Shown: piece by piece, positions 10,174 through 31,638 of the stretch
How positions within the stretch are numbered: position 1 is the first letter of the stretch
Layout: each line of letters opens with the position of its first letter
IMG/VR virus record: IMGVR_UViG_3300005613_000269
Location: 1 to 31,638 of that record
Direction: 5' to 3' (one strand)
DNA: 31,638 nt
Origin: a virus
Translations under genes and position numbers: made by a program
The notes under the pieces: model-generated
Databases searched by the model: none
The model's input: only the letters and a program-made list of their open reading frames with translations
What the model was told of the DNA's origin: nothing

Positions 10174-10442
10174 TGAAGAAGTTATTAATTAAACTTTGCT
10201 GGTGGTTGATAGTTATATTTTTATGGTTATCAAATCAAATAGGTAAGTTATTAAACAAATTAGGTGCTAAAAAGATCAAATTGAATAAAAAAAGGAAAAA
10301 GAAAATGCCTCTCAAAAAGGGTAAAAGTAAAAAAATTATATCTTCTAATATAAGAGAAATGCGAAAGACTGGACATCCGCAAAAACAAGCTGTAGCTGCT
10401 GCTCTAAGTACCGCTAGAAAATCAAAGAAGAGAAAGAAATGA
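10173..10442 (+). CDS. Membrane segment fused to DUF6496-like basic domain
   Basis: An 89-residue protein. Residues about 5-24 (LIKLCWWLIVIFLWLSNQIG) form one membrane segment. From about residue 45 the segment MPLKKGKSKKIISSNIREMR and GHPQKQAVAAALSTARK is the DUF6496 pattern (small basic phage proteins found near portal or capsid genes). DUF6496 proteins I know usually begin at that internal Met, so the hydrophobic front may be an added piece, or the internal ATG at 10305 (preceded by GGAAAAAG) may be a second start. Coupled to both neighbours. Function unknown. Confidence 0.6.
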   Translation: MKKLLIKLCWWLIVIFLWLSNQIGKLLNKLGAKKIKLNKKRKKKMPLKKGKSKKIISSNIREMRKTGHPQKQAVAAALSTARKSKKRKK

Positions 10443-12472: not shown

Positions 12473-15010
12473 ATGACAACTACAACAACAATTTTACCGC
12501 CTCCTGTGGCTCAGGAATTTAGCGAAAAGATGTTAAGCACTCCAATGCCGCATCTTGTGCATAATTTGTTCGCTATTCCAAGGTCGATTAAAGGAAACAA
12601 CGGTAAAACTTTAAGAATGCGCCGATATAATCGGTTGCAGACTGCAACTGTGCCGGTAGATCCATTATTTATGAATCCGCCTGCGCAAACTATGACTGCT
12701 GTAGATATAGACGCTAAAATTTTATGTGGTGTCTTTAAATTGATTCTAATTGACTCGGAGTTCCGACAGGATAACGAGGGGCAAGCGCAAGCAGCCTGAG
12801 AGACTAAACGAATCAAAGTCGAAAGACTAAGCAATAGTCCGACCCTAGGCTATAAACAAAACCTAGGAGAGGGGAATAACAAGACCCTCCGCCTAGAAAT
12901 AGGTCATTAAAGTAACAGAAAGACAATTAATTGGTATTCTACAACAGTAATATTGACTCGGGAAGTGGTCGCCATAAATGAAGACCCCACTTTAAATCAG
13001 GCAGCAGCTCGTTTGGGACAGTCCCTTGACACACTAGGGGACTTTAAATCGAACCTAAATACCTTGGAAAACCTAAAGGCAGCATAGCCCATGGCAACCA
13101 GAAGGAACTAGATTAATAATTACCTTTATGATTGAGCTTATGAACCTCTTTAATAATTTTTTCACGAAGAATGATACGCTTTTTAAAGTCTGTTGTAAAG
13201 ACTTTAGAATGTCTATCTCCTCCATTTGGAAGAATTGTTGCTTGAAATTTTATAAGTTCTTCACAGACAGCTTTTTTATTAAAAAGAAATGGCTTTATCT
13301 TAAAAAGAATTGGATAAAGGGATTTTGCATAGAGTGCCCATGTAGCAGCATGAAGTTTATTTTTCCGTCTTGGAGAAATATATGTAAGACTTCCTCCAAA
13401 TCTTTTTATAAGCCATTCCATCATTTTTATTTTAGTGTTTCCAATTTCAAAGACAGTATTATAAATTTTCTCTCTTTTGTTATTTCTATTGCGAAATCTG
13501 CTAGAAATTCTCAAACATCCTTCGGCATCTATAAGTCCAGCAAGATATATATAATCTTTATCAGTTGGTTTAATAGATTTTTTAGATGTTTTAAGAGAGA
13601 CAATGGCTTCTTTAGTTATAAGTCCATTGTGATGGTTTTCTTGTCTTATTTTAGAAATAAGATCATTTCTTTTTTCTATAATTTTAAAAGCTGGTTTCAG
13701 AAAACAATTAGGTTTAATAACCTTGCAAAAATCTATAAAAAAATCACATTCTTTAGCTTTATTAACAAGAAAAGACTTGATGTTGAAAGCGAGTTTTCCA
13801 GCAGCATTTCCTTTAATTGTCCATATATAAGCTTTTTTCTGATTTTTGTGAGCTTTCTTTGTGCTGATATATCCGCCAAAAGTTTTATTGAAGAAAAAAA
13901 TAACTTCTTTTTTGGTAGAAGAAATTGTTATGGAGCGCTCATAGACAATAATACCGCTTTTTTGAGTGGTAATGTTGCATCTAAAGCAACCATCTCCATC
14001 AACATATCCAGCCAAGTAGATAAAGAAATCTCTTTGTGTTTTCATGAATTATATTATAAAGGGAAACCGAATAAAAGTCTAGGCCTGCAGAGACTAAACG
14101 ATTCGAATGACATATTTGTCATATGCGATAGTCCGAACCACTTCGAAAGATTTGGAGGGAGGAATAACAAGACTCCCCGCCTAGAAATAGGTCATTAAAG
14201 TAACAGATTGTAGAGAAACAGAAGACGAACTGATGCGCAATTTGCTAGTGGCTACAGCCGCTTTTGTGAACTGCACTGGGGGCGTTAACGGTGGGATCGC
14301 CGTTATAAAATCAGACCTAATTGACTCGAAACTCTTACCGGATAATGCCGGAGACAACGAGGCGCAAGCGCAAGCAGCGTGAGAGACTAAAGCGGTCAGA
14401 CACCGAAAGGTGAAGCACTAGTCCGGACTCTATGGAAACATAGAGAGTATGGCAGAAATGACCATACCGCCCGAAAGGGTAGTAACAATTATCAGACAAC
14501 CCTACTGAACCAACAGCAGCCGATTTTGAAGGTGTGGTAACATCACTTTTAACTTCTGATGCCGACTATATTGGCGAAGTTATCGAAGGCGAAAACCGCT
14601 TTGGAACTGGCCCTGTAAGAGACAGCTTCTTTGCAATGGCTAATACTGCAATTATACCTAGATTGCAGGCTGTTGCAGGCTATATCAATAAGGCTCAGTA
14701 CCCATCACAAATGAATATCTTGTCTGCGGAACATGGTTCTGTAAACAACATTCGTTTTGTGTTGAGTTCTCGTGGCTCGATAACAACCAATGCTTCTTTA
14801 CTGGGTGCAAACGTTTACAATATGTTTGTAACAGGACAAGAAGCTTATACAAGCGTACAACTTGATGGTGAGAATGCGAAATTCATTTATAAAGCTCCAG
14901 GAACAGTTAATGATCCTGCTGAATTAAGACATCAAGCGTCTTATCGCTTTTCTCATGCAAGAGCAATTACTAACAACGCTTGGGTAACCAATTTAAGATG
15001 CACAATCTAA
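12473..15010 (+). CDS. Major capsid protein (N4-gp56 family), four exons split by three group I introns
   Basis: The gene is a join of 12473-12715, 12923-13026, 14211-14293 and 14496-15010: 945 coding bases, 314 residues, all phases consistent. The joined protein reads on across each junction as the N4-gp56 capsid family does: VDIDA then TINWYSTTVILT; NEDPTLNQAAARLGQSL then RETEDELMRNLLVAT; CTGGVNG then DNPTEPTAADF, ending NAWVTNLRCTI. Without splicing exon 1 stops at 12797-12799. Junctions were set from reading frame, guide pairings and terminal G, so one or two bases may shift. The third junction is ambiguous by one base. It forms the shell and is made after scaffold. Good ribosome site (GAGG). 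Confidence 0.88.
12716..12922 (+). ncRNA. Group I intron 1 in major capsid gene
   Basis: A 207-base self-splicing intron. The exon end GACGCT (12710-12715) pairs with guide GGTGTC (12728-12733), ending in the expected U-G pair at the 5' splice site. R element GAGAGACTAAACG (12798-12810) and S element AATAGTCCGAC (12833-12843) give the P7 pairing, with an AGTC-GAAA-GACT hairpin (P8 with tetraloop) between. The last base is G (12922), and the 3' exon ACA pairs with TGT just before the guide (P10). It has no open frame of its own. A 31-base stretch near its 3' end (12889-12919) is identical to intron 2. Confidence 0.85.
13113..14045 (-). CDS. LAGLIDADG homing endonuclease, antisense to its intron
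   Basis: A 310-residue basic protein with two LAGLIDADG motifs: YLAGYVDGDG (11-19, acidic Asp 16 and 18) and YLAGLIDAEG (168-176, Asp 173 and Glu 175). It is therefore a single-chain pseudo-dimer with both active-site acids. Such enzymes cut intron-less alleles and cause intron homing. It is encoded on the strand opposite to the capsid gene and intron, so capsid transcripts cannot express it. TAGACT-17 bases-TATAAT (14081-14053, minus) ends 7 bases before the ATG, and no ribosome site is seen, so a leaderless transcript is plausible. No gap or stop: it looks intact. Confidence 0.88.
   Translation of the reverse strand: MKTQRDFFIYLAGYVDGDGCFRCNITTQKSGIIVYERSITISSTKKEVIFFFNKTFGGYISTKKAHKNQKKAYIWTIKGNAAGKLAFNIKSFLVNKAKECDFFIDFCKVIKPNCFLKPAFKIIEKRNDLISKIRQENHHNGLITKEAIVSLKTSKKSIKPTDKDYIYLAGLIDAEGCLRISSRFRNRNNKREKIYNTVFEIGNTKIKMMEWLIKRFGGSLTYISPRRKNKLHAATWALYAKSLYPILFKIKPFLFNKKAVCEELIKFQATILPNGGDRHSKVFTTDFKKRIILREKIIKEVHKLNHKGNY
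14053..14081 (-). promoter_or_regulatory. Promoter-like pair for the antisense endonuclease
   Basis: On the minus strand TAGACT (14081-14076) is 17 bases before a perfect TATAAT (14058-14053). The -35 hexamer matches 4 of 6 consensus bases. The start codon of the endonuclease lies 7 bases further on, which would place the transcript start almost on the ATG. AT-rich sequence can imitate a -10, so this is suggestive only. Confidence 0.45.
14294..14495 (+). ncRNA. Group I intron 3 in major capsid gene
   Basis: A 202-base intron without an open frame. Exon AACGGT (14287-14292) pairs with guide GCCGTT (14299-14304). The R element is GAGAGACTAAAG (14381-14392), S is CTAGTCCGGAC (14418-14428), and between them a CACC-GAAA-GGTG hairpin (P8 with tetraloop). 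It shares CTAATTGACTCG and a 15-base GCGCAAGCGCAAGCA-type block before R with intron 1. The codon GAC at the joint can be split after T 14292 or after G 14293, with the intron ending at A 14494 or G 14495. The terminal-G rule favours 14294-14495. Confidence 0.83.
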
Positions 15011-21807: not shown

Positions 21808-22779
21808 ATGGTAAACATGCATTGGACAATATTATCTGAAGGAAAATTAAAATCTAATGGACATCGTTCTTTAAGATGTCAATGTATTTGTGGAACTATA
21901 AGAGATGTAGATATTTATTTTTTTAAATATAATTGTTCTAAAAGTTGTGGTTGTTGGCAATGTGACATTCTCTCGGCAATAAATTACCGAGCATCCTAAG
22001 ATGCAAGAGATTCCTTATTCACAGAGAATAGCCAGGAGGAAACGGCTTGGTTTTTGCAAATGTCCTCTTAGAGGACTTTTACGTTTGTTACAACCCATGT
22101 CCTCCGGTCTTACATTCTCTCCAAAGGCTTTAACATTCCGAGTGCCCCTCGGTAGACCTTTAAAGGTAAAAATATTTTAATACAAAAGAATTTTATTTTA
22201 AAGAGAAAAAACAAACATCATATTCTCTTTCATCTCGGCATTAAAATACCGAGGATTCCCGAGAATTATCCTAAATTAATTGATTATGATAATAGAAAGA
22301 GAAAGTTATTAAAGAGAAATATAAAAATAAACGAAAATGATTGTTGGGTTTGGCAAAAAGGAAAGGACAGAGATGGATATGCAATTTGTGGTTATAAAAA
22401 AAAGACCTCAAAAGCACATAGAATTTCTTATTTATTATTTAAAGGTAAAATTCCCAAAGGAAAATTAGTGCTTCATAAATGTGATAATCCAAGTTGTATA
22501 AATCCAAACCATCTTTTTTTAGGAACTGCAAAAGATAATTTTGATGATTGTAGGAATAAAGGAAGAACAGCAACTGGTGATAAAAATGGAATGAGATTGC
22601 ATCCAGAAAAAGTAAATAGAGGTTCAAAACATCCTAGTAGTAAATTAAATGAAAAACAAGTTTTAGAAATACGCAAACTTAAAAATCAGTTTTCACATTT
22701 AGAATTATCTAAGATATTCAATATAAGTAAATCAGTTGTAAAACATATCATTCATAGAAGATCTTGGAAACATATTTAG
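21808..22779 (+). pseudogene. HNH homing endonuclease gene split by a palindromic insertion
   Basis: Two parts of one gene. 21808-21966 encodes a Cys-rich finger (SLRCQCICGTIRDVD and KSCGC), like the front of the intact HNH enzyme at 29900. From 22267, a second part reads NDCWVWQKGKDRDGY, KAHRISYLLFKGKIPKGKLV and LHKCDNPSCINPNHLFLGTA, the HNH core, then a helix-turn-helix tail ending RRSWKHI. The core motif matches the 29900 protein closely. The two parts are out of frame and separated by the element at 21963-22276. The start ATG lies in a 9-bp hairpin (21794-21816) with no ribosome site. ATG 22468 could still make a truncated 103-residue piece. Confidence 0.8.
21963..22276. mobile_element. 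Palindrome-rich insertion, about 314 bases, without a protein gene
   Basis: Bounded by two direct hairpin repeats: CTCGGCAATAAATTACCGAG (21973-21992) and CTCGGCATTAAAATACCGAG (22234-22253). Between them lie GTCCTC-TTA-GAGGAC, then TTTT (about 22063-22080), CCGAG-TGCCC-CTCGG (22138-22152), and a longer pairing of CC(A)GGAGGA (22032) with TCCTCCGG (22100). ACATTCTCT-like strings recur at 21964, 22113 and 22221. The right 44 bases recur inverted at 6763-6806. No transposase is encoded. It could be a non-autonomous hairpin-ended element or a structured RNA; group I signatures were not found. Confidence 0.6.
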
Positions 22780-22937: not shown

Positions 22938-23504
22938 TTAATTGATTTCTTCTAATTCTCTTTGTTTACGATTTTTATAATGTGGTTTTGAAGTTATTAA
23001 GTCAATTAGGTCGTCTTGATCTTTGGGAAGTTCTGAAACTTCTGGATCGGCAAGAAGTTTAGCTTCATGTTCTTTTTCAAAAGCATTTTTTCGGCAAGCG
23101 ATTTTGTTTTCCATTAGGTTGTATAGGTCTTGTTCGTAATCTGTGTAATAGGCGTTTAAGGCAATTTCTTGCCATTCTTCTATTTGAAAGCCACCAGACC
23201 AGATTTCAGTATCTTTAGCTTGTTTACGTTTAGCTTTGATTAAATCTCCCCATTCCCGATTATATGGCTTAAAACCTTCCATATTCACAATAGCCGGCAA
23301 AAGCTGACTTAAATTAGCCGGAACAGTTTCCGCTTGGGCTTTGAATTTATTGAGCCAATCTTTGAGGATTGTTTTGACAGATTTATTAATCATGCCATTT
23401 AAAGCGTTTTGCGACCATTCTTTTGGTTCTATATCTAAATAATGATCTAAAGCTTTTCTATCTTGATTAGATACTTTAAACCCTTGATTACATATTTGTT
23501 TCAT
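22938..23504 (-). CDS. Hypothetical helical protein, last gene of the tail cassette
   Basis: A 188-residue, charged, helical protein with no low-complexity Ala/Thr bias, unlike its neighbours. Segments such as WSQNALNGMINKSVKTILKD and YDQ-type residues are not known motifs. It follows the two C1q-like genes, where phages often place a fibre-assembly chaperone or a trailing hypothetical protein; a chaperone role is therefore possible but unproven. Ribosome site AAGGAGAA before the ATG. Nothing transcribed from the same strand follows in this window before the converging HNH gene. Confidence 0.5.
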   Translation of the reverse strand: MKQICNQGFKVSNQDRKALDHYLDIEPKEWSQNALNGMINKSVKTILKDWLNKFKAQAETVPANLSQLLPAIVNMEGFKPYNREWGDLIKAKRKQAKDTEIWSGGFQIEEWQEIALNAYYTDYEQDLYNLMENKIACRKNAFEKEHEAKLLADPEVSELPKDQDDLIDLITSKPHYKNRKQRELEEIN

Positions 23505-23513
23505 AAATTCTCC

Positions 23514-24029
23514 TTAAACTATTAGTTTTCCAGAAAAGAAAGTATTTGGTTGTGTAGTTCCTCTACGTATTTGAGCAGTATCTGCTCCTATTCCAGTAGC
23601 AACGATAGTATAATAAGCAGTATCAGCAGCGTCCATATCGGCAATTACATTAGTCTGAAAACTTACTCCACTACAACCTAGGTTATTAATAATATTAACA
23701 TTACAAGATAATGTAGTATAATTTCTATTGGAAGTAACTAATGTTGTAATTAAAGAAGTTGCAGCAGCAGCACTTACAAGGAGAACATGGGCATTGAGAA
23801 AATATCTCCCTGTTACAGGAGCTGTAAAAGAAGTTCCTGAAAAATCATTATTTTGATCATAAACATCAGTAAATCCACTAATAGCGCCTACAGTTGCTAC
23901 AGTTCCATCACCAGTTGCATTACTCTCATCTGCTGTTAGCCATGTTAAAAAACAAGGCTGGCTTGGTGCTGTTACTTCTCTATTTGTTGTTGGTACTATG
24001 TAAGTATTTGCTGCATTTACTGTTGTCAT
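23514..24029 (-). CDS. C1q-like jelly-roll tail protein, copy B
   Basis: A 171-residue protein. An N-terminal 27 residues (MTTVNAANTYIVPTTNREVT...) are shared with copy A. A C1q-like beta-jelly-roll follows: AISGFTDVYDQNNDFSG, then FTAPVTGRYFLNAHV (the characteristic FTAP..GrY), and later NVIADMDAADTAYYTIVATG, ending FFSGKLIV. C1q-like domains trimerise and are used as receptor-binding tips in phages. The repeat of the gene next to it, with an identical start but different core, suggests diversification for host binding. Copy A ends 9 bases upstream. Confidence 0.72.
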   Translation of the reverse strand: MTTVNAANTYIVPTTNREVTAPSQPCFLTWLTADESNATGDGTVATVGAISGFTDVYDQNNDFSGTSFTAPVTGRYFLNAHVLLVSAAAATSLITTLVTSNRNYTTLSCNVNIINNLGCSGVSFQTNVIADMDAADTAYYTIVATGIGADTAQIRRGTTQPNTFFSGKLIV

Positions 24030-24038
24030 TTTAAATCC

Positions 24039-24548
24039 TTAGCAAAGTAAAGACCCTGAAAAAAAAGTCCCGTTTGTTTCTAAATCTACTGTATCGCCGA
24101 CTCCGCCATTAATGTTTAATAAACAAGCAGCAGTATCAGCAGCGTCCATATCAGCAACAAGTGAAGATCCAAAAACTATATCGTTAGTTCCTGCATTAAC
24201 AGCAGCTATAGGACTTACAACTATTCCTAAATAAGTTCTATTAGAAGTAACAATATCAAAAACACATTGGTTCATTCCAACAGCAAAATTATCAGCCTGA
24301 ATACTCATATTTAATAAATATCTTCCAGTTACAGGTGCGGTAAAAGTTCCATTAGTATTAAAGTCAGAGTTTTGATCGTAAATCTCTGTAAAAGCTGTAT
24401 TTGTTCCTACTGTATAAGCAGTACCAGCTCCAGTTACGTTTGAATCTGTCCCACTTAAAAAACCTAAAAAACAAGGTTGGCTTGGTGCTGTTACTTCTCT
24501 ATTTGTTGTCGGGACTATGTAAGTATTTACTGCATTTACTGTTGTCAT
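24039..24548 (-). CDS. C1q-like jelly-roll tail protein, copy A
   Basis: A 169-residue paralogue of copy B. The first 83 bases (24548 back to 24466) differ from copy B's at only four positions, while the cores differ much more. FTEIYDQNSDFNT, GTFTAPVTGRYLLNMSI and SLVADMDAADTAACLLNING carry the C1q-like signature. The protein likely forms trimeric beta-rich tips. AGGAG overlaps the end of the 24556 gene, so it is translated from the same minus-strand message. Receptor role is inferred from fold and cassette position. Confidence 0.72.
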   Translation of the reverse strand: MTTVNAVNTYIVPTTNREVTAPSQPCFLGFLSGTDSNVTGAGTAYTVGTNTAFTEIYDQNSDFNTNGTFTAPVTGRYLLNMSIQADNFAVGMNQCVFDIVTSNRTYLGIVVSPIAAVNAGTNDIVFGSSLVADMDAADTAACLLNINGGVGDTVDLETNGTFFSGSLLC

Positions 24549-24555
24549 AAATCTC

Positions 24556-25707
24556 CTATACTATTGCAGGATTGCCCATCATATCTTCAACTCTAAAAGT
24601 CGTATTAGCTACTATGCAGCGTAGAGTTATGCAGTCACCTAAATTAGTAGCAGTAAGACTTCCTCCAGCACCAGCCGTAGTAGAAAACGCTCCTACGTGA
24701 ACTTGTTGTCCAGCAGCTTGAGTTAATGACCAAAGCCCTAAAATCCCAGTAATTTTCATAACTGTTCCAGCAGCAGCAGTTGCAGGAAGTGAGAAAGCAA
24801 CTCCAGCTCCTCTATTAGCACCATAGGCAGTCTGAACAGCCATTGCTTGAGTAGCACCAGTTGCCTCTACATAAGCCATAGAAGTATTATCTTGCCAAGT
24901 AGGTAAAGCAGCAGCTCCATTGCTAGTTAAGACTTGTCCTGATGTTCCAACTCCTACAACATTTTGTAAATCTCCTGTTGCAGTTGTTCCTCCACATATA
25001 ACTGAATAAGCTGTAAACGTACCAACTCCTGTTCCTCCCTCAGTTACATCTAAGTCATTAGCTAGGGTAATTACTCCAGCAGTTGTCATAGTGAAAAGAT
25101 CAGTACCAGCAGAAGGGCTTGCTCCTGTAGTAATCTTAAATTTGTCGCTATCAGAATTGTCTATACCAATGCTATAAGTTCCAGCTCCTGTGACCAAAAA
25201 GTTAATAAATGGATCGCCACCAGCAGCACCACCACTTGTTGCTTGAAAGAAAGCATTAGAAGCAACACTTGTATTATCAGTATTGGTAACAGAAAGAGTT
25301 CTAGGTGTAGCAGCAGTAGCATTAGAAAATACAAAGTCTCCGGCAAAAGGTGATACCATAGAAATATTTAGAGTATTAGTTCCTGGAATACCATTAGTAG
25401 TAATACCACTATTAGCTAAACCTGTAAGATTTATATTTTCAGCAGCATCTATTCCTACAGCACCACCGGCATTACCAGTTAATGTCTCTAAAGCTCCAGT
25501 ACCAGCAGCTCCGACCCATGAAGCTGTACCTGCTAGTTTTTTAACGAGGGCATACATTTTATTAGTAACGGTATCTATCCATAAATCACCAAGGTCATAA
25601 TTGGCATAATCAGTTGCAAGTGGAGCTCGAGGTACTTTATATATTTGTGGAACGTCCGTTTCTTTTATACCAACATATCCTAGTGGATTACTAGAAGGTA
25701 AACTCAT
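24556..25707 (-). CDS. Tail fibre-like structural protein
   Basis: A 383-residue, Ala/Thr/Gly-rich fibre protein. The start (GYVGIKETDVPQIYKVPRAP, then DLGDLWIDTVTNKMYAL) is an attachment-like head seen in environmental phage fibres. GALETLTGNAGGAVG (about 72-86) is shared with the beta-helix protein 28229-25980. Later LAN-DLDVTEGGTGVGTFTAY and GTSGQVLTSNGAAALPTWQD are repeats common in phage tail fibres. The C-terminal 100 residues form a likely receptor-binding beta domain. It is probably an elongated trimer. No intramolecular chaperone motif is seen. Confidence 0.68.
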   Translation of the reverse strand: MSLPSSNPLGYVGIKETDVPQIYKVPRAPLATDYANYDLGDLWIDTVTNKMYALVKKLAGTASWVGAAGTGALETLTGNAGGAVGIDAAENINLTGLANSGITTNGIPGTNTLNISMVSPFAGDFVFSNATAATPRTLSVTNTDNTSVASNAFFQATSGGAAGGDPFINFLVTGAGTYSIGIDNSDSDKFKITTGASPSAGTDLFTMTTAGVITLANDLDVTEGGTGVGTFTAYSVICGGTTATGDLQNVVGVGTSGQVLTSNGAAALPTWQDNTSMAYVEATGATQAMAVQTAYGANRGAGVAFSLPATAAAGTVMKITGILGLWSLTQAAGQQVHVGAFSTTAGAGGSLTATNLGDCITLRCIVANTTFRVEDMMGNPAIV

Positions 25708-25752
25708 TTTTTTATGTTCCTATTTTTTTTTTTTGTAATATGTAAACCGGCT

Positions 25753-25959
25753 TTACAGAGCGTTAATAGCATCTAATTTAGCCTGTAGTTCTGCTTTTAT
25801 AGCTGTATAAGAATCAATAGTAGCTTGAGCCTTAGCAATCTCTGCTTTTAGATCAGTTACAACTTTTTCTTTTTCACCCAGCTCTTTAATTTCCTGACTT
25901 TCAGGAATAGTAATTGTTTGTTTTACTACTTCGTTTTCTAATGAATAATTTACTGACAT
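25753..25959 (-). CDS. Small coiled-coil protein in the tail cassette
   Basis: A 68-residue protein. The first 25 residues are polar (SVNYSLENEVVKQTITIPES), then a continuous heptad-like helix (KVVTDLKAEIAKAQATIDSY and TAIKAELQAKLDAINAL), typical of a trimeric or dimeric coiled coil. It probably joins or staples fibre subunits. It lies between the fibre and beta-helix genes. AAGGAG is 6 bases before its ATG. A 13-base T-run at about 25722-25735 separates it from the next gene. Confidence 0.6.
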   Translation of the reverse strand: MSVNYSLENEVVKQTITIPESQEIKELGEKEKVVTDLKAEIAKAQATIDSYTAIKAELQAKLDAINAL

Positions 25960-25979
25960 AAAAACTCCTTAATTAATTG

Positions 25980-28229
25980 TTAAACAGCATCCAAAGAAAT
26001 CCAGTACTCTACGCCATTAATAAGTACTTTTAGTTTATGACTTGGTGTAATTGCTCCCGCTTCTACTGCCTGCTCTGTGTATAAAGCTAAAGTAGAAGTA
26101 CTGTCGCTAGTATCAACGGCATAAATCTCTACTCCATCAGTTACCGCACCACTAGGAGCTGTTCCATTAAAAATTGTATGAACAGCAGCAGCAGTTGCAT
26201 CAATTGTGCCTGTACCTATTTTGGTTACACCTTTAGACGAAAGGCTCATCTTTTCAGCAACAGTTCCATCTAAAGCTGTCTGAAAAGACATATAACTGTC
26301 TTGAGTAGCAGCACTCGCTGTAGTCCAATTACCTTCCGTAATAACAGCAATTCTGCCGGCATCGGCAAGAGCAGGAGTTGCAGCATCATATGCCCATTGG
26401 TTGAATAAGATGCCAGAACTAGTTCCTGTCATTGCAGCAGCGTTAGAAATATTAGTAATTTCTAGAAAGTCTTTGTTTGCTGTGACTATGCCTGCGTGTT
26501 CTATGTCTAAAGGAGATGATGGGACAAAAACTGTACCAACAATACCCATTGACTTGATTCCAACATATCCAGAATCGTTTAATGCTATCTTAGCTTGATC
26601 TGATGTACCAAATAATAATGATGATGCTCCTGAATTTAAAATGAAGGCATTATTACGTAAAGGGACATTAGCAACAGCACTACCGGCAGCACCCATTCTA
26701 ATTTCCGCGGTTGAATCAGCATTATCAAAAGCCATTAAACTATAAGAATCAACTCCATTTTGAAGTAAATCTAATAACCATTCGGGATTTGGCTGTGAAA
26801 GACCTACATATCCTTTAGAATTAATAACTACTTTTTCTGAAACAGTCCCATCTAAACAGGTTTGGAAGGACATTTTGGAATCTTGGTTTGCAGCAGTTGA
26901 ATCCCAGTCAGTTTCGGTTATAACTGCAATCCTACCAGCATCTACTACAACAGGTGTCGCAACATTATAATATTTTTGGTTAAACAAGATGCCAGTACCA
27001 GTTCCGTCCATGTCGGCAGCTTGATAAAGATTGGCAATAGTTAGAAAATCAGTAACGTCTTTAGCAGTTCCGACAGCAGCTAGATCTATCATTCCATCTT
27101 GGTTTGAACTAGCCTCTGTAAAGACACCAGTACCGACAATATTAACTCCGTCAGCAGCAATAATATCATCTAGCTGAGAAATCACAGTTGCAGTATTGCC
27201 TACATAGTAAGAACAGCTTGTGCCTCCTGTATCTGTAACATGGATATGATTATAGAAAAATCTAGAAGTTGAAGCAGTATCAGCAGCAAAGAAACCATAA
27301 CCAGTATTTGCGGCTCCTGCTATAACATGAATAGTATTTTCGTAAAATTCATGAGTTGTACCAGTACCTCCAATATATCCTAAACCAATTACATTAGTAG
27401 AATTAGGATCAGTCACAGTAATTTTATTGTTATGTAATTCAAAAACGCCGGTAGTTGCTTGATCAATTCCAACAGCAGTTGCTAGAGCAGTTCCGCTATT
27501 TGTTACAGTTAATTCTTCAACTTTATTAATATGAATTGTTCCACCAGTACCTACTTTGAAAGCACCTTTTAAAGCTGTTGCTCCGCAAGCACCAGTATGG
27601 AAATAATCATGCTCACCTCTAACCACATTAAGAGTTCCGGCACCGGTAATTTCCCCAATAGCAGGTTGGCTAGCAGCTACAATAGCAGTTGCAGAAACCA
27701 TTCTTAATTTACAATCTTTAAAAGTACAATTTCCTGTGCTACCTTGGACTGTGTTAATAGCTGTTGTAGCAGCAGTACACTGAATTGTAAAATTTTGATA
27801 TTGAATATTTGTACGACTATTGAAATCTACTACATTGGCATTAGCCTGCGTAATAATACACTCATTAGGTTTACCACGAGCTATAACAGTAACATTATTA
27901 TTAGCGTGTGTAATTGCTTCAGTATAAGTACCAGGAGAAACCATTACAGTTTGACCAGCAGTAGCAGCAGTTACACCTGCCTGAATTGTTAGTTTAGCGT
28001 TCTCAATATTAAGACCAGAATTAGCATCATTACCATGCTTAGAAATATAAATAATGCCTTGTTGAGCATCTACTTCCATTGTTAGGGTATGAGTAGCAGG
28101 ATCGCCTGTATTGGTTAAACCGACACCACCTAGAGTATTGATATTGCCTACATTATCTGGCCCTACAGCACCACCAGCATTGCCTGTAAGAGTTTCAATC
28201 CCATCAAAATAATCGCCAGCTTGTGACAT
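25980..28229 (-). CDS. Beta-helix tailspike with duplicated C-terminal modules
   Basis: A 749-residue protein. It starts with a fibre linker (IETLTGNAGGAVG), then IIYISKHGNDANSGLNIENA, TIQAGVTAATAGQTVMVSPG and TYTEAITHANNNVTVIA, the opening of a right-handed beta-helix of the pectin-lyase type. Repeating strands follow (FNSRTNIQYQNFTIQCTAA; EFYENTIHVI; FFYNHIHVTD). The C-terminal part has two copies of one module: GILFNQKYYNVATPVVVDAG near 410 and GILFNQWAYDAATPALADAG near 610, each followed by RIAVITE and MSFQT..DGTV.EK. The spike probably binds or degrades surface glycans; catalytic residues cannot be assigned. Confidence 0.78.
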   Translation of the reverse strand: MSQAGDYFDGIETLTGNAGGAVGPDNVGNINTLGGVGLTNTGDPATHTLTMEVDAQQGIIYISKHGNDANSGLNIENAKLTIQAGVTAATAGQTVMVSPGTYTEAITHANNNVTVIARGKPNECIITQANANVVDFNSRTNIQYQNFTIQCTAATTAINTVQGSTGNCTFKDCKLRMVSATAIVAASQPAIGEITGAGTLNVVRGEHDYFHTGACGATALKGAFKVGTGGTIHINKVEELTVTNSGTALATAVGIDQATTGVFELHNNKITVTDPNSTNVIGLGYIGGTGTTHEFYENTIHVIAGAANTGYGFFAADTASTSRFFYNHIHVTDTGGTSCSYYVGNTATVISQLDDIIAADGVNIVGTGVFTEASSNQDGMIDLAAVGTAKDVTDFLTIANLYQAADMDGTGTGILFNQKYYNVATPVVVDAGRIAVITETDWDSTAANQDSKMSFQTCLDGTVSEKVVINSKGYVGLSQPNPEWLLDLLQNGVDSYSLMAFDNADSTAEIRMGAAGSAVANVPLRNNAFILNSGASSLLFGTSDQAKIALNDSGYVGIKSMGIVGTVFVPSSPLDIEHAGIVTANKDFLEITNISNAAAMTGTSSGILFNQWAYDAATPALADAGRIAVITEGNWTTASAATQDSYMSFQTALDGTVAEKMSLSSKGVTKIGTGTIDATAAAVHTIFNGTAPSGAVTDGVEIYAVDTSDSTSTLALYTEQAVEAGAITPSHKLKVLINGVEYWISLDAV

Positions 28230-28239
28230 AGTGTTCTCC

Positions 28240-28572
28240 TTATGCGTGTATGAGGGTTATATAAAGTCCGCCAACAGTAGGAGCAACACCTGCGTGCTTT
28301 GCATACCAATAACCGTTTTGAGGCATAAAGAAGCCATCGTCTCTAACTTTATTAGCCGTTAAATCTAAAAGAATAAATCCCCGATTAGGGAGTAGAAATT
28401 TGTTATTAACACCATCATCTGATAACCAAAGATTTTGGTCTGTATTATTTAGAATATAAACTAAACGAATTGGTTCATCTATTTGTGCTCCGACAGCAGC
28501 ATAAGCAGCTCCAATTGCTCCAAAGGCTAAAGTTCTGACTGTGTCGATTACTGCTCTATTACGATATGACAT
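28240..28572 (-). CDS. Small tail-associated protein, first gene of the minus-strand cassette
   Basis: A 110-residue beta-rich protein: FGAIGAAYAAVGAQIDEPIR, LVYILNNTDQNLWLSDDGVN, FLLPNRGFILLDLTANKVRD and GYWYAKHAGVAPTVGGLYIT. This compact pattern is common in uncharacterised phage proteins lying before tail fibres and could be a baseplate-side adaptor or decoration protein. It is the first gene read leftwards from the divergent 28573-28724 region. No membrane segment. Function is only inferred from position. Confidence 0.6.
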   Translation of the reverse strand: MSYRNRAVIDTVRTLAFGAIGAAYAAVGAQIDEPIRLVYILNNTDQNLWLSDDGVNNKFLLPNRGFILLDLTANKVRDDGFFMPQNGYWYAKHAGVAPTVGGLYITLIHA

Positions 28573-28724
28573 TTTTGAAAACCTCTTGTTGTGGGCAACT
28601 CCTGATTTATACTAGCGATTTTGGCTAGGCCCTATTAAGTAGTAAAATATTTACTTGACTTCACCATGTGTATCTAGTATTTATTTGTAAATAGGAGATA
28701 AGCACTAACCAAAAGGAGATTTTT
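28573..28724. promoter_or_regulatory. Divergent promoter region with 16-base motif copy 5
   Basis: AGTAAAATATTTACTT at 28641-28656 is the fifth copy of the intergenic motif. Its end overlaps TTGACT (28655-28660), followed 17 bases on by TATTTA (28678-28683), a promoter for the plus gene at 28725. The second conserved block CCATGTGTA (28664-28672) is present too. For the minus tail cassette, TATAAA lies at about 28605-28600 on the minus strand. CTAGC...GCTAG (28611-28627) is a small inverted repeat. Confidence 0.55.
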
Positions 28725-28979
28725 ATGCAGCTACATCCAATAAGTACACTTAAAGTAATTGTTTTAAATGACGATAAAACAAGAGGTGTTACACTAGAAT
28801 ATCCCCATGATATGAAAATGGGAGAACTCTTAGACAAAGTAGCTTTTATGAATGATGAAATTAAAAAAGCTTATTTAAAACAATTAGAAAAGGAAAAAGC
28901 TGATGCTGAAAAGAAAGACGATAAAAAAGATAGCAAAATCGAAGAAATGCCAAAAGAAGAACCTAAGCCTAAAAGCTGA
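28725..28979 (+). CDS. Small hypothetical protein with acidic/Lys-rich tail
   Basis: An 84-residue protein with AAGGAG before ATG. Residues 1-45 (TLKVIVLNDDKTRGVTLEYP; KMGELLDKVAFMNDEIKKAY) form a small beta-then-helix domain. The tail is repeated Lys, Glu and Asp (KADAEKKDDKKDSKIEEMPK) and probably disordered. It is transcribed away from the tail cassette. A further open stretch in the +1 frame starts at its stop codon (see the next feature). No family recognised. Confidence 0.55.
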   Translation: MQLHPISTLKVIVLNDDKTRGVTLEYPHDMKMGELLDKVAFMNDEIKKAYLKQLEKEKADAEKKDDKKDSKIEEMPKEEPKPKS

Positions 28980-29076
28980 TGATCTGGATTCAGAGCTTTT
29001 ACAGATTATAGTTCATTCCTATCTTGAAGGATATAAGGAAGGGATTAAGACTAAAGAGGAATTAGGTTACAATTAA
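28978..29076 (+). other. Open +1-frame stretch after the 28725 gene, no start codon
   Basis: From the base after the first letter of the TGA of the previous gene, the +1 frame is open for 32 codons and reads DDLDSELLQIIVHSYLEGYK, then EGIKTKEELGYN, a sensible amphipathic helix. It has no ATG, GTG or TTG start in frame nearby. It could be an extension reached by +1 slippage at AAA-AGC-TGA, a fragment left by a frameshift mutation, or chance. A strong terminator follows at 29083. Confidence 0.3.
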
Positions 29077-29082
29077 GTTTTG

Positions 29083-29112
29083 AGAGCTTCTTGATTAGAA
29101 GCTCTTTTTTTT
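29083..29112 (+). terminator. Strong rho-independent terminator
   Basis: AGAGCTTCT (29083-29091), loop TGATT, and AGAAGCTCT (29097-29105) form a perfect 9-bp stem, followed by an eight-base T-run (29105-29112). It closes the 28725 transcript before the recombinase control region. Confidence 0.9.
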
Positions 29113-29270
29113 CAGTTGTTCGGAAATTCCGTACAACTCACTCCGTGCAGTCTTTAGAGACCCAGATAAATTCTATTAAATAGAAAAAATACCTTCTCTA
29201 GAAGATTAGTAGTCTTTAATTTAGTTTTTAATTAAAATAGTCTTTTTTTTACGAAAGGAGATCAAAAACT
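29113..29270. promoter_or_regulatory. Recombinase upstream region with 25-base dyad
   Basis: This 158-base region lies before the recombinase gene. A 25-base near-palindrome occupies 29114-29138 (AGTTGT...ACAACT, arms broken only at two symmetric positions and the centre). Its length suits a serine-recombinase crossover site or an operator. AGTCTTT recurs at 29149, 29211 and 29240. The ribosome site GAAAGGAG is 8 bases before the recombinase ATG. No second full dyad was found in the window; a partial one lies at 30550-30562. Confidence 0.45.
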
Positions 29271-29834
29271 ATGCTAATCGGCTATGCTAGAATTTCTACT
29301 GAATATCAAAATTTAAATATGCAAATTGATGCTCTTAAAAAACATGGAGTTGATGAAAGACATATTTTTAGGGAAACGATTTCTGCTTGTGCTAGGAAAA
29401 GATCAGAATTAACAAAAGCTATGGCCTTTCTTAAAAAAGGGGATACTTTAGTAGTTTATAAATTAGATAGGCTCGGTAGATCAGTCTCTCATTTAATTGA
29501 AATGATTAATTTTTTAAAAGAAAAAGGGGTTTTATTCTATTCTATCACAGAAAAATTAGAAACTGAAACAGCTACAGGAAAATTGCTCTTTAATATGATG
29601 GCTACTTTAGCAGAGTTTGAGCGTAGTTTAATTCAAGAAAGAGTAAAAGATGGAATGGCAGTAGCTAAAGCAAGAGGTACTAAATTTGGAAGAAAAGAAA
29701 TATTAAATAATGCTCAAAAAGAACATATTAGGGAGTTGTTAAAACAAAAGCGTAGCAAATATGATATTATGAGAATCTTAGGAATTAAATCCCGAAACCC
29801 TATCTATAGGTTGATAAAAGAAGAACAGCTTTAA
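29271..29834 (+). CDS. Serine recombinase, DNA invertase/resolvase type
   Basis: A 187-residue enzyme of the small serine recombinase family. IGYARIS contains the catalytic Ser 9, with Arg 7 nearby. KLDRLGRS (64-71) carries the conserved Asp 66, Arg 67 and Arg 70. MATLAEFERSLIQERVKDGM is the long E-helix, followed by the AKARGTKFGRK linker and a C-terminal helix-turn-helix (about 145-185). Length and order fit Hin, Gin and Tn3-type resolvases, including the KGDTLVVYKLDRLGRS phrase. It lies beside a tail-fibre cassette on the other strand, as phage invertases such as Gin do. All key residues look present. Confidence 0.9.
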   Translation: MLIGYARISTEYQNLNMQIDALKKHGVDERHIFRETISACARKRSELTKAMAFLKKGDTLVVYKLDRLGRSVSHLIEMINFLKEKGVLFYSITEKLETETATGKLLFNMMATLAEFERSLIQERVKDGMAVAKARGTKFGRKEILNNAQKEHIRELLKQKRSKYDIMRILGIKSRNPIYRLIKEEQL

Positions 29835-29847
29835 TTAGGGATAAGGG

Positions 29848-29880
29848 AAGGGAGAGGACAGAATATCCCCTCCCTTTTTT
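29848..29880 (+). terminator. Terminator after the recombinase gene
   Basis: AAGGGAGAGG (29848-29857) pairs with CCCCTCCCTT (29867-29876) with one mismatch, giving a GC-rich stem, followed by TTTTTT (29875-29880). It stops the recombinase message before the convergent HNH gene, which ends at 29900. Confidence 0.75.
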
Positions 29881-29899
29881 GATTAATTGGGATAAGAAA

Positions 29900-30538
29900 T
29901 CAAATATCTTTCCAAGATCTTTTGCGAATAATATCGTAAACCATAGTGGTAGAAATTTTATACTTTTTAGCTATTTGATAACCACTTGTCGTTTTTGATA
30001 ATCTTCTTATTTCTAAAATATCTTTTTTATTTAATTTAGAATTAGGATTTTTTTCACCGACAGACATTCTTCCTTTTTTAATAGCATCTTGTGTATTGTC
30101 TTGGGGTGTTCCTAAAAATAGATGATCTGGGTTTACACATGTAGGATTATCACATTTGTGACATACCATCATTCCTTTCGGTATTTTACCTATAAATTCT
30201 TCATATGAAACACGGTGTGCTCTTTTGTAATATACCAGTCCATACCCATCTTTATCTTTTCCCTTTTGCCAAATCCAACAACCATTTTCTTCTCTTGAAG
30301 AATAATTCAAAATCTTATCTTTAAATGTCTTTTCCGGATAACGTAGACAACCACAACTATTACAACGACCAGATTTTAAATCATCGGTAAATTTAATTTG
30401 AATTGTCTTGTATTTACATGAACATTGAACTTTCCATCTCGTCCTTTCTGTTCCATTTGGTCTTTTACCATTTGGAGCATAATCAATAACTGTTAATCTT
30501 CCAAATTTTTGACCTATTAGATTTTTTTTGCGACACAT
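29900..30538 (-). CDS. HNH homing endonuclease (intact)
   Basis: A 212-residue enzyme. The start ATG 30538 has GGAGG four bases upstream; a longer TTG start at 30571 would run into a hairpin and is not used. Residues 5-64 carry GQKFGRLTVIDY and Cys 39, 41, 59, 62 and 64, a zinc-binding finger. The HNH_3-type core is at about 107-150: RAHRVSYEEFIG, CHKCDNPTCVNPDHLFLGT, with His 127, Asn 136 and His 139. A helix-turn-helix tail (165-212) ends KRSWKDI. It is a freestanding mobile enzyme between the recombinase and a structural gene, and a close relative of the broken copy at 21808-22779. Confidence 0.88.
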   Translation of the reverse strand: MCRKKNLIGQKFGRLTVIDYAPNGKRPNGTERTRWKVQCSCKYKTIQIKFTDDLKSGRCNSCGCLRYPEKTFKDKILNYSSREENGCWIWQKGKDKDGYGLVYYKRAHRVSYEEFIGKIPKGMMVCHKCDNPTCVNPDHLFLGTPQDNTQDAIKKGRMSVGEKNPNSKLNKKDILEIRRLSKTTSGYQIAKKYKISTTMVYDIIRKRSWKDI

Positions 30539-30560
30539 ACAACCTCCGTAGTTGTTCCGA

Positions 30561-30619
30561 AAAGAAAACAAGCTCAGCCAGTCGGAAACTGGTTTTCGGG
30601 GGCGACCCTAGAGCTTGTT
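30561..30619 (-). terminator. Structured terminator/leader between structural gene and HNH gene
   Basis: AACAAGCTC (30567-30575) and GAGCTTGTT (30611-30619) form a perfect 9-bp stem, enclosing a small hairpin CCAGT-CGGAA-ACTGG (30578-30592). On the minus strand the stem is followed by TTCTTTTC. It could end the upstream structural gene's message and also sits in the leader of the HNH gene, which may limit its expression. The enclosed 35-base loop is larger than in a simple terminator. Confidence 0.5.
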
Positions 30620-30643
30620 AAAAATTATACTATTCTATAAGAT

Positions 30644-31638
30644 TTAATACCATGCTTGTAATCCACATTTAATTGACTGAATAGTAATAGCACTAGGTGT
30701 GCCACCTGCCGCAATGAATAAATGGTGAATAAACGGAATCACAACATCAGTAGAATCGAATGTAAAAGCCAATGGAGTAGATGGTGCAGCTCCATTAATG
30801 GTAGCGGTACAAACTCCAGCAGCAGATACGTTGATTCTTAATATTTTAGTCTGTCCATCAGTCCAAGCATCTCCTGAATCCTGATAGTTCCATCCAGCAT
30901 TATTTAAATTACTGCCCAAAACTACTTTATCATCTACAGTTGTATGCCTTAGACCAATAGTATAAGCATCTGTATAATTGGTGTATACTGCATTAGGAGC
31001 TCCTAATTTTCTAAATCCTATCCATAAAGGATCTGAAGATCCACAATCAGCTACTTTTAAGGATACTTCTAAAAAGAAAGCTGCGGAAGTGCCAATTGTA
31101 TAATTATGGCGTGATCTAGTAGTATGACCAAAATAAAATTCAGCTCCTTCTGCATTGGCCAAATCGAGAGAAATTAATAAACCATCATCAGTTAAACGGG
31201 GAAGGATAATAGTTTCTCCACCAGCAGCAATAATAAATTCTTCCATTACAGTACGATCCTGCATATAAAGAATATTATAATCGCCGTTAGCTCCTGTTGG
31301 CGCAGCACCAGTATTTGCTTTAGATTGACCAATAATATCAACGTCAAAGCTTGCAATATTAGTATTAGTTGGATTGCTTGACCTAGTACCCAAATCACCG
31401 GAGAAAGTCATGCCGGTAGTGGCAACTTTCATAGTTGATTGGTTTTGAAAGCGAATATCTGCATTGGTATATGGTTGTCCTGCATATCCTGGAACTGTGT
31501 TATATGCGTCAAAAGCATATAACCAATCAGCAGCAGCATTAGTACCTTGGCAGACACCGAAAGCAGCACGAGCAGCAGTACCACCGCCAGCACCTAATCT
31601 AGTAACAGCCATACCATAGGCAATAGTTTGGAAAGGAG
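30644..31638 (-). CDS. Phage structural protein, 5' end cut by window edge
   Basis: The frame ends at 30644. An ATG occurs at 31612 (322 residues from there), but no ribosome site precedes it, and the same frame stays open to the window edge (QTIAYGMAVTRLGAGGG), so the true start is probably outside. The protein is Ala/Thr/Gly-rich and beta-like: AFDAYNTVPGYAGQPYTNAD, ILYMQDRTVMEEFIIAAGGE, and DADG-free repeats such as GLRHTTVDDKVVLGSNLNNA. The last 150 residues look like a concanavalin-like or fibre beta-sandwich. Composition matches the tail cassette genes. A head or tail fibre role is inferred from composition and neighbourhood. Confidence 0.6.
   Translation of the reverse strand, partial: PFQTIAYGMAVTRLGAGGGTAARAAFGVCQGTNAAADWLYAFDAYNTVPGYAGQPYTNADIRFQNQSTMKVATTGMTFSGDLGTRSSNPTNTNIASFDVDIIGQSKANTGAAPTGANGDYNILYMQDRTVMEEFIIAAGGETIILPRLTDDGLLISLDLANAEGAEFYFGHTTRSRHNYTIGTSAAFFLEVSLKVADCGSSDPLWIGFRKLGAPNAVYTNYTDAYTIGLRHTTVDDKVVLGSNLNNAGWNYQDSGDAWTDGQTKILRINVSAAGVCTATINGAAPSTPLAFTFDSTDVVIPFIHHLFIAAGGTPSAITIQSIKCGLQAWY

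Follow-up and report, generated by a model that had tools for sequence, protein, structure and literature searches.

The window, by which we mean the whole 31,638-nt stretch of viral DNA that was analysed, carries on its plus strand a gene for a major capsid protein that is spread over four exons and lies downstream of terminase and portal genes, the usual place for it. All four are delimited by tblastn comparison with intron-free relatives. Exon 1 (12473..12715, 243 nt) ends in GACGCU and exon 2 (12923..13026, 104 nt) in AGUCCCU. Exon 3 (14211..14293), for which guide pairing was used as well, has 83 nt, or 82 if the cut falls after U14292, and exon 4 (14496..15010) has 515 nt including the stop codon. 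Joined (243 + 104 + 83 + 515), the exons give a 945-nt frame with no internal stop and a product of 314 aa, which matches TIGR04387, the N4-gp56 major capsid protein family, over residues 3-312 (147.2 bits where the cut-off is 60, E=6.9e-43) and phrog_1357, a major head protein (E=1.7e-26). The phrog_1357 match is weaker for single exon fragments (8.6e-11 for exon 4 alone), and the separate fragments and ORFs visible to a gene caller have no Pfam match. A preliminary description of this DNA had proposed a 945-base N4-gp56-type sequence in these four pieces, of which a gene caller would see only fragments; coordinates, sizes and joined protein are as it described.

The exon borders are settled by relatives whose capsid gene is uninterrupted at all three sites (L005, 80% identity, and L006, 69%). 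Their proteins run continuously across VDIDA-TINWY, QSL-RETEDE and GxNG-DNPT, bearing out the earlier impression that the joined protein reads like its family at the junctions. Two further relatives (L007 and L008) have one interruption, exactly at site 2, where an intron of the type found in the window, 214 nt long, has no endonuclease gene. By sequence comparison, the identity of the gene as an N4-gp56-type major capsid gene in four exons is confirmed.

Three compact group I introns

The exons are separated by three inserts on the plus strand. Intron 1 (12716..12922, 207 nt) and intron 3 (14294..14495, 202 nt) contain no ORF, and intron 2 (13027..14210, 1184 nt) houses an endonuclease gene in its P6a loop. 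To compare them with similar elements we used a covariance model, R1, built on 35 aligned introns, none of them from the window, with a P3-P4-P5-P6-P7-P8 structure; these introns were drawn from other viral contigs (by a short core pattern, among the matches listed), plus L007 and L013. The alignment keeps 98.5% of 1077 pair cells, P3/P7 pseudoknot included, and both sides have changed together in 18 pairs (149 cells), something that none of 500 shuffles did as well; when partners are slid by 1-3 columns, pairing falls to 37-47%. The covariance check that had been proposed for the inserts gave strong R1 matches in intron 1 (12736-12845, 96.6 bits, E=3e-21) and intron 3 (14307-14429, 80.1 bits, E=2.8e-17), and a weak one in the 3' half of intron 2 (14063-14139, 18.4 bits, E=0.019), whose score is low because the endonuclease gene splits the core. 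A further R1 match at 10332-10375 (E=0.2) was treated as chance.

Crossing P3 and P7 helices, together with a bulge in P7, are the signature of group I introns, and a U.G pair normally marks their 5' splice site. The R and S elements (P7), P3 and P8 are found in the introns of the window, the P3 and P6/P6a pairings of intron 2 having been read directly from the sequence. Inspection also reveals a guide for each upstream exon: GACGCU (12710-12715) pairs with GGUGUC (12728-12733), AGUCCCU (13020-13026) with GGGGACU (13037-13043), and AACGGU (14287-14292) with GCCGUU (14299-14304). All three pairings close with U.G. The preliminary description had seen group I elements and an exon guide in every gap; the elements and pairings stand, and the part that does not hold fully is junction 3, where the pairing lies 1 nt off frame. 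G is the last base of introns 1 and 2 (12922 and 14210), which have the tail GTAACAGANNG in common. Independent covariance-model matches, covariation in the P3/P7 pseudoknot, the exon guides and homologues free of introns all support reading the three inserts as group I introns that belong to a single compact type, with no P2 seen, a P3-P8 core and three hairpins in the P9 region.

Rfam returned no group I match for the window at gathering score, and none at E<=10. When RF00028 was searched on the record alone, it gave sub-threshold hits of 18.5 bits at intron 3 and 17.2 at intron 2, well short of its cut-off of 50. Rfam also missed introns of the R1 type in 14 other loci. Since clear R1-type introns elsewhere are missed too, its silence turned out to be a matter of model coverage, and the Rfam group I seed is known to lack some subgroups (PMC11878797).

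Could the inserts be something else, that is inteins, group II introns or bypass elements? The missing Rfam match above gathering score is what this idea has in its favour. Inteins are excluded by the stops within the inserts, and group II and bypass readings by the P3/P7 pseudoknot, the guide pairing with its U.G and the terminal G, so that we give them almost no weight. It is also very improbable, if slightly less so, that these exons belong to a decayed or duplicated copy, with the functional capsid gene in another part of the viral genome. Since the record is a fragment and not a whole genome, another copy is conceivable; but all four exons are open, ordered, of full length and in the usual place, the exons stay open too in relatives that share these intron sites, and the 31.6-kb record holds no second or intact capsid copy, an intact copy being one of the findings that the preliminary description had named as refuting it.

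The alternative that deserves most attention concerns junction 3. There the U.G of the guide pairing falls at U14292, one base short of G14293, where the exon has to stop if the frame is to be kept (the other option being an intron that stops at A14494). G14495 is the last base of the intron only with G14293 as the end of the exon; with U14292 in that place the last intron base is A, and the terminal G is displaced by 1 nt with respect to the frame. Same-site introns in five other viruses (L137, L169, L180, L212 and L308) show GGU before the intron, a G at its end and GA(C/T) after it; in the window GAC is preceded by A, and this terminal G is absent. Four causes are conceivable: cleavage displaced by one base, an intron with A as its last base, decay of this copy, or a one-base error in the assembly. 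It could then be that introns 1 and 2 splice while intron 3 is damaged, its U.G and the only nearby 3' G shifting the frame, with no full-length capsid protein made from the gene as written, through decay or an assembly error. We regard this as a serious possibility, though the less probable outcome: intron 3 is otherwise well preserved (80 bits), and exon 4 is intact and stop-free, as expected for a gene in use. Intron 3 may be decayed and junction 3 is unproven, but the mismatch leaves the identity of insert 3 as a group I intron unaffected.

An antisense endonuclease gene in intron 2

The preliminary description read intron 2 correctly as an intron but missed the gene inside it. On the minus strand (13113..14045) lies a gene for a LAGLIDADG homing endonuclease of 310 aa with the motifs LAGYVDGDG and LAGLIDAEG, a PF00961 match (E=1.4e-10) and relatives of I-CreI in the PDB. 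It is antisense to the intron and, by inspection, the P6a loop that it occupies is closed by CUAGA (13108-13112) and UCUAG (14078-14082). A 356-aa ORF that crosses intron 2 on the sense strand was rejected as coding, given the LAGLIDADG match and the codon-position bias on the antisense strand. No close relatives of this endonuclease were found in a search of viral contigs.

The orientation recurs in relatives. Where capsid-gene gaps contain a recognisable LAGLIDADG gene, it is antisense in 30 of 33 and sense in three, one of the latter (L052) possibly lying outside any intron. Among the 30, many are homologous genes that share one site (V95), most such loci having been found with a pattern for that neighbourhood; in the sample independent of that scan, 11 are antisense and one is sense. 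Five sites (about 95, 103, 116, 143 and 213) and at least two loops harbour antisense genes, the loops being P6a and, in L137 and L308, one 3' of a complete core; the loci include L127, L137, L156, L169, L188, L206, L207, L212, L217, L230, L308 and others. Eight relatives' proteins were checked in Pfam, and the seven antisense ones match LAGLIDADG_1 (E from 1e-11 to 2e-3). Between homologous antisense genes, 39-61% of third codon positions differ and 15-27% of second positions, in the antisense frame and in every group, a pattern that points to selection on LAGLIDADG genes in the antisense frame.

Seven nt before the ATG of the window's gene, on the minus strand, a consensus scan finds a promoter-like TAGACT-17-TATAAT (14053..14081) with 10/12 matches, which alone is no evidence of function. 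Several antisense genes have a Shine-Dalgarno-like AAGGA and TATAAT-like boxes upstream, and the promoter score upstream of antisense genes is slightly higher than in shuffled sequence (8.06 vs 7.34). These signals suggest that antisense endonuclease genes have promoters of their own. Our literature search found no report of antisense endonuclease genes in phage introns, which does not prove their absence.

Some other endonuclease genes were observed along the way. The intron at the window's site 3 carries an antisense endonuclease gene in one relative (L308), and three R1-type introns (L093, L146 and L102) hold apparent GIY-YIG or HNH genes in their P8 region; these genes, in contrast to the antisense LAGLIDADG ones, are in sense orientation. 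Outside its introns, the window contains two HNH-endonuclease-like ORFs (22468-22779, plus strand, and 29900-30571, minus strand) with similar C-termini (NHLFLGT...RRSWKHI / RKRSWKDI). It also contains a serine invertase/resolvase-like gene (29271-29834, plus strand; Mpi-type match below cut-off) that stands among the minus-strand genes of 22938-31612 and adjoins large fibre-like genes on the minus strand; this could be an invertible tail-fibre region.

Insertion sites and mini-introns across relatives

A tblastn search with the capsid protein found 28 of 118 loci split or partial, a count that is not a frequency since some loci were chosen by intron pattern. Across relatives the gene has at least 15 distinct insertion sites, at approximate positions (capsid numbering) 5, 8, 26, 30, 50, 68, 78, 81, 95, 97, 103, 116, 117, 126, 136 and 143, and further at 146, 174, 178, 213, 226, 282 and 302. 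In one locus (L098) there are four gaps and, close to the 3' end, another; three others (L188, L225 and L230) have at least three each. These insertions mark the capsid gene, in this phage lineage, as a hot spot where introns have been gained again and again. The contigs with capsid relatives include some binned as Simkaniaceae, Parachlamydiaceae and Methylococcaceae (L307, L308 and L309), a kind of assignment that is unreliable for phage contigs. Among cultured phages, a nucleotide search with intron 1 gave only a 27-base match at chance level. A search with the consensus core of the R1 type reached Roseobacter phage CRP-118, a Manatee Spring phage and Desulfovibrio phage 7757, the first and last of which are cultured phages with this intron type.

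About 35 relatives, among them some 30 loci (L222-L300), have in addition a very short insertion that is missing from the window. It was seen after the FYG codon of the capsid gene in L012, L127, L156, L169 and L207, with a length of 29-39 nt, and a pattern scan gave 39 matches, 34 of them distinct in strict form, of 28-39 nt and with all three values modulo 3. These mini-introns have no core. They carry a terminal G, and their P1, a guide pairing with U.G, is paired in 100% of cells, partly because the pattern fixes it. P10 is paired in 97%; its second pair forms in 33/33, with four different pair types among them, against a shuffled mean of 16. Between the 3' arm and the exon that follows it, 90.9% of cells pair, compared with at most 80.1% in whole-strand shuffles. 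The only thing that the scan required downstream was a short exon motif. In 33 of 34 cases the mini-intron is followed by a 27-nt exon and then by the guide of a full intron; in the remaining one (L011/L012), a 48-nt exon precedes the full intron. A genome contig (L309, near 650-687) shows the same arrangement of mini-intron and full intron. A full intron without a mini-intron exists (L206 and L217), and the reverse was not seen among the mini-intron loci. We infer from this association that mini-introns would be removed by the ribozyme core next to them; possibly they are bypassed by ribosomes instead. If they are spliced by their neighbour's ribozyme, this would be a new way of group I splicing.

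Proposed mechanism and known systems

In the mechanism that we propose, each intron, once transcribed, would fold and bring its own guide into pairing with the last bases of the 5' exon; guanosine would then cut at the U.G pair and the exons would be joined into the 945-nt reading frame. With no endonuclease gene in them, introns 1 and 3 have probably lost the ability to move on their own. Intron 2 would be the mobile one, its antisense endonuclease probably being made from its own minus-strand promoter and cutting intron-free capsid alleles, into which intron 2 would be copied. We are highly confident, from sequence, in the overall picture of a capsid gene with three compact group I introns, of which intron 2 would be the mobile one, in a gene that is a hot spot, splicing being predicted. 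Rather more tentative, and a little short of an even chance in our judgement, is the idea of an unusual system in which antisense LAGLIDADG genes with their own promoters have their expression uncoupled from late capsid transcription, and in which, in the relatives that have one, a covarying mini-intron precedes the full intron, whose ribozyme removes both.

A whole lineage of tailed phages would thus tolerate repeated group I introns in the gene of its major virion protein. Because the compact type goes unreported by Rfam, gene callers see fragments, and surveys based on the capsid gene lose such viruses. The recurrence of antisense LAGLIDADG genes also makes it testable how expression of the endonuclease is separated from that of late genes.

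The preliminary description had called three introns in one virion gene unusual, which now appears less so, with up to four or five insertions in relatives and comparable genes in other phages. Group I introns interrupt the tail tube protein gene of phage Twort, orf142, in three places (Landthaler & Shub 1999, as reported in PMC11878797). The case is like the window in having three of them in one virion gene, but it is another gene in another phage lineage and, according to the same secondary account, splicing and exon skipping are demonstrated in Twort, whereas the window is known from sequence. In the crAss-like Zeta phage OLRF01000054 it is also the major capsid gene that is broken by several introns: it lies in five fragments, and three of the four gaps have domains typical of group I introns (PMC7886860). 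There, however, the introns were recognised by their protein domains, and the frames are co-directed, not antisense. Polymerase and terminase genes of Bastillevirinae have two or three group I introns (PMC11878797), again several per phage gene, but in genes for DNA metabolism and packaging and not in the virion shell. For an endonuclease gene opposite to the intron strand, the parallel is in the nuclear rDNA group I introns of Didymium, whose endonuclease genes are antisense and have separate antisense transcription (PMC9548176); these, however, are introns of eukaryotic rDNA with endonucleases of the His-Cys box family, whereas those studied here are phage introns with LAGLIDADG genes. The intron type itself is shared with the cultured Roseobacter phage CRP-118 (OR420741.1, our locus L310, 2483-2882, 105.6 bits with R1), where in contrast to the window it interrupts the gene for ribonucleotide reductase, whose annotation shows two separate CDS. 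Phage genes with three introns, and a capsid gene in five pieces, are therefore already known; the intron type, the antisense gene, the hot-spot context with at least 15 sites and the 28-39 nt mini-introns of the relatives are new.
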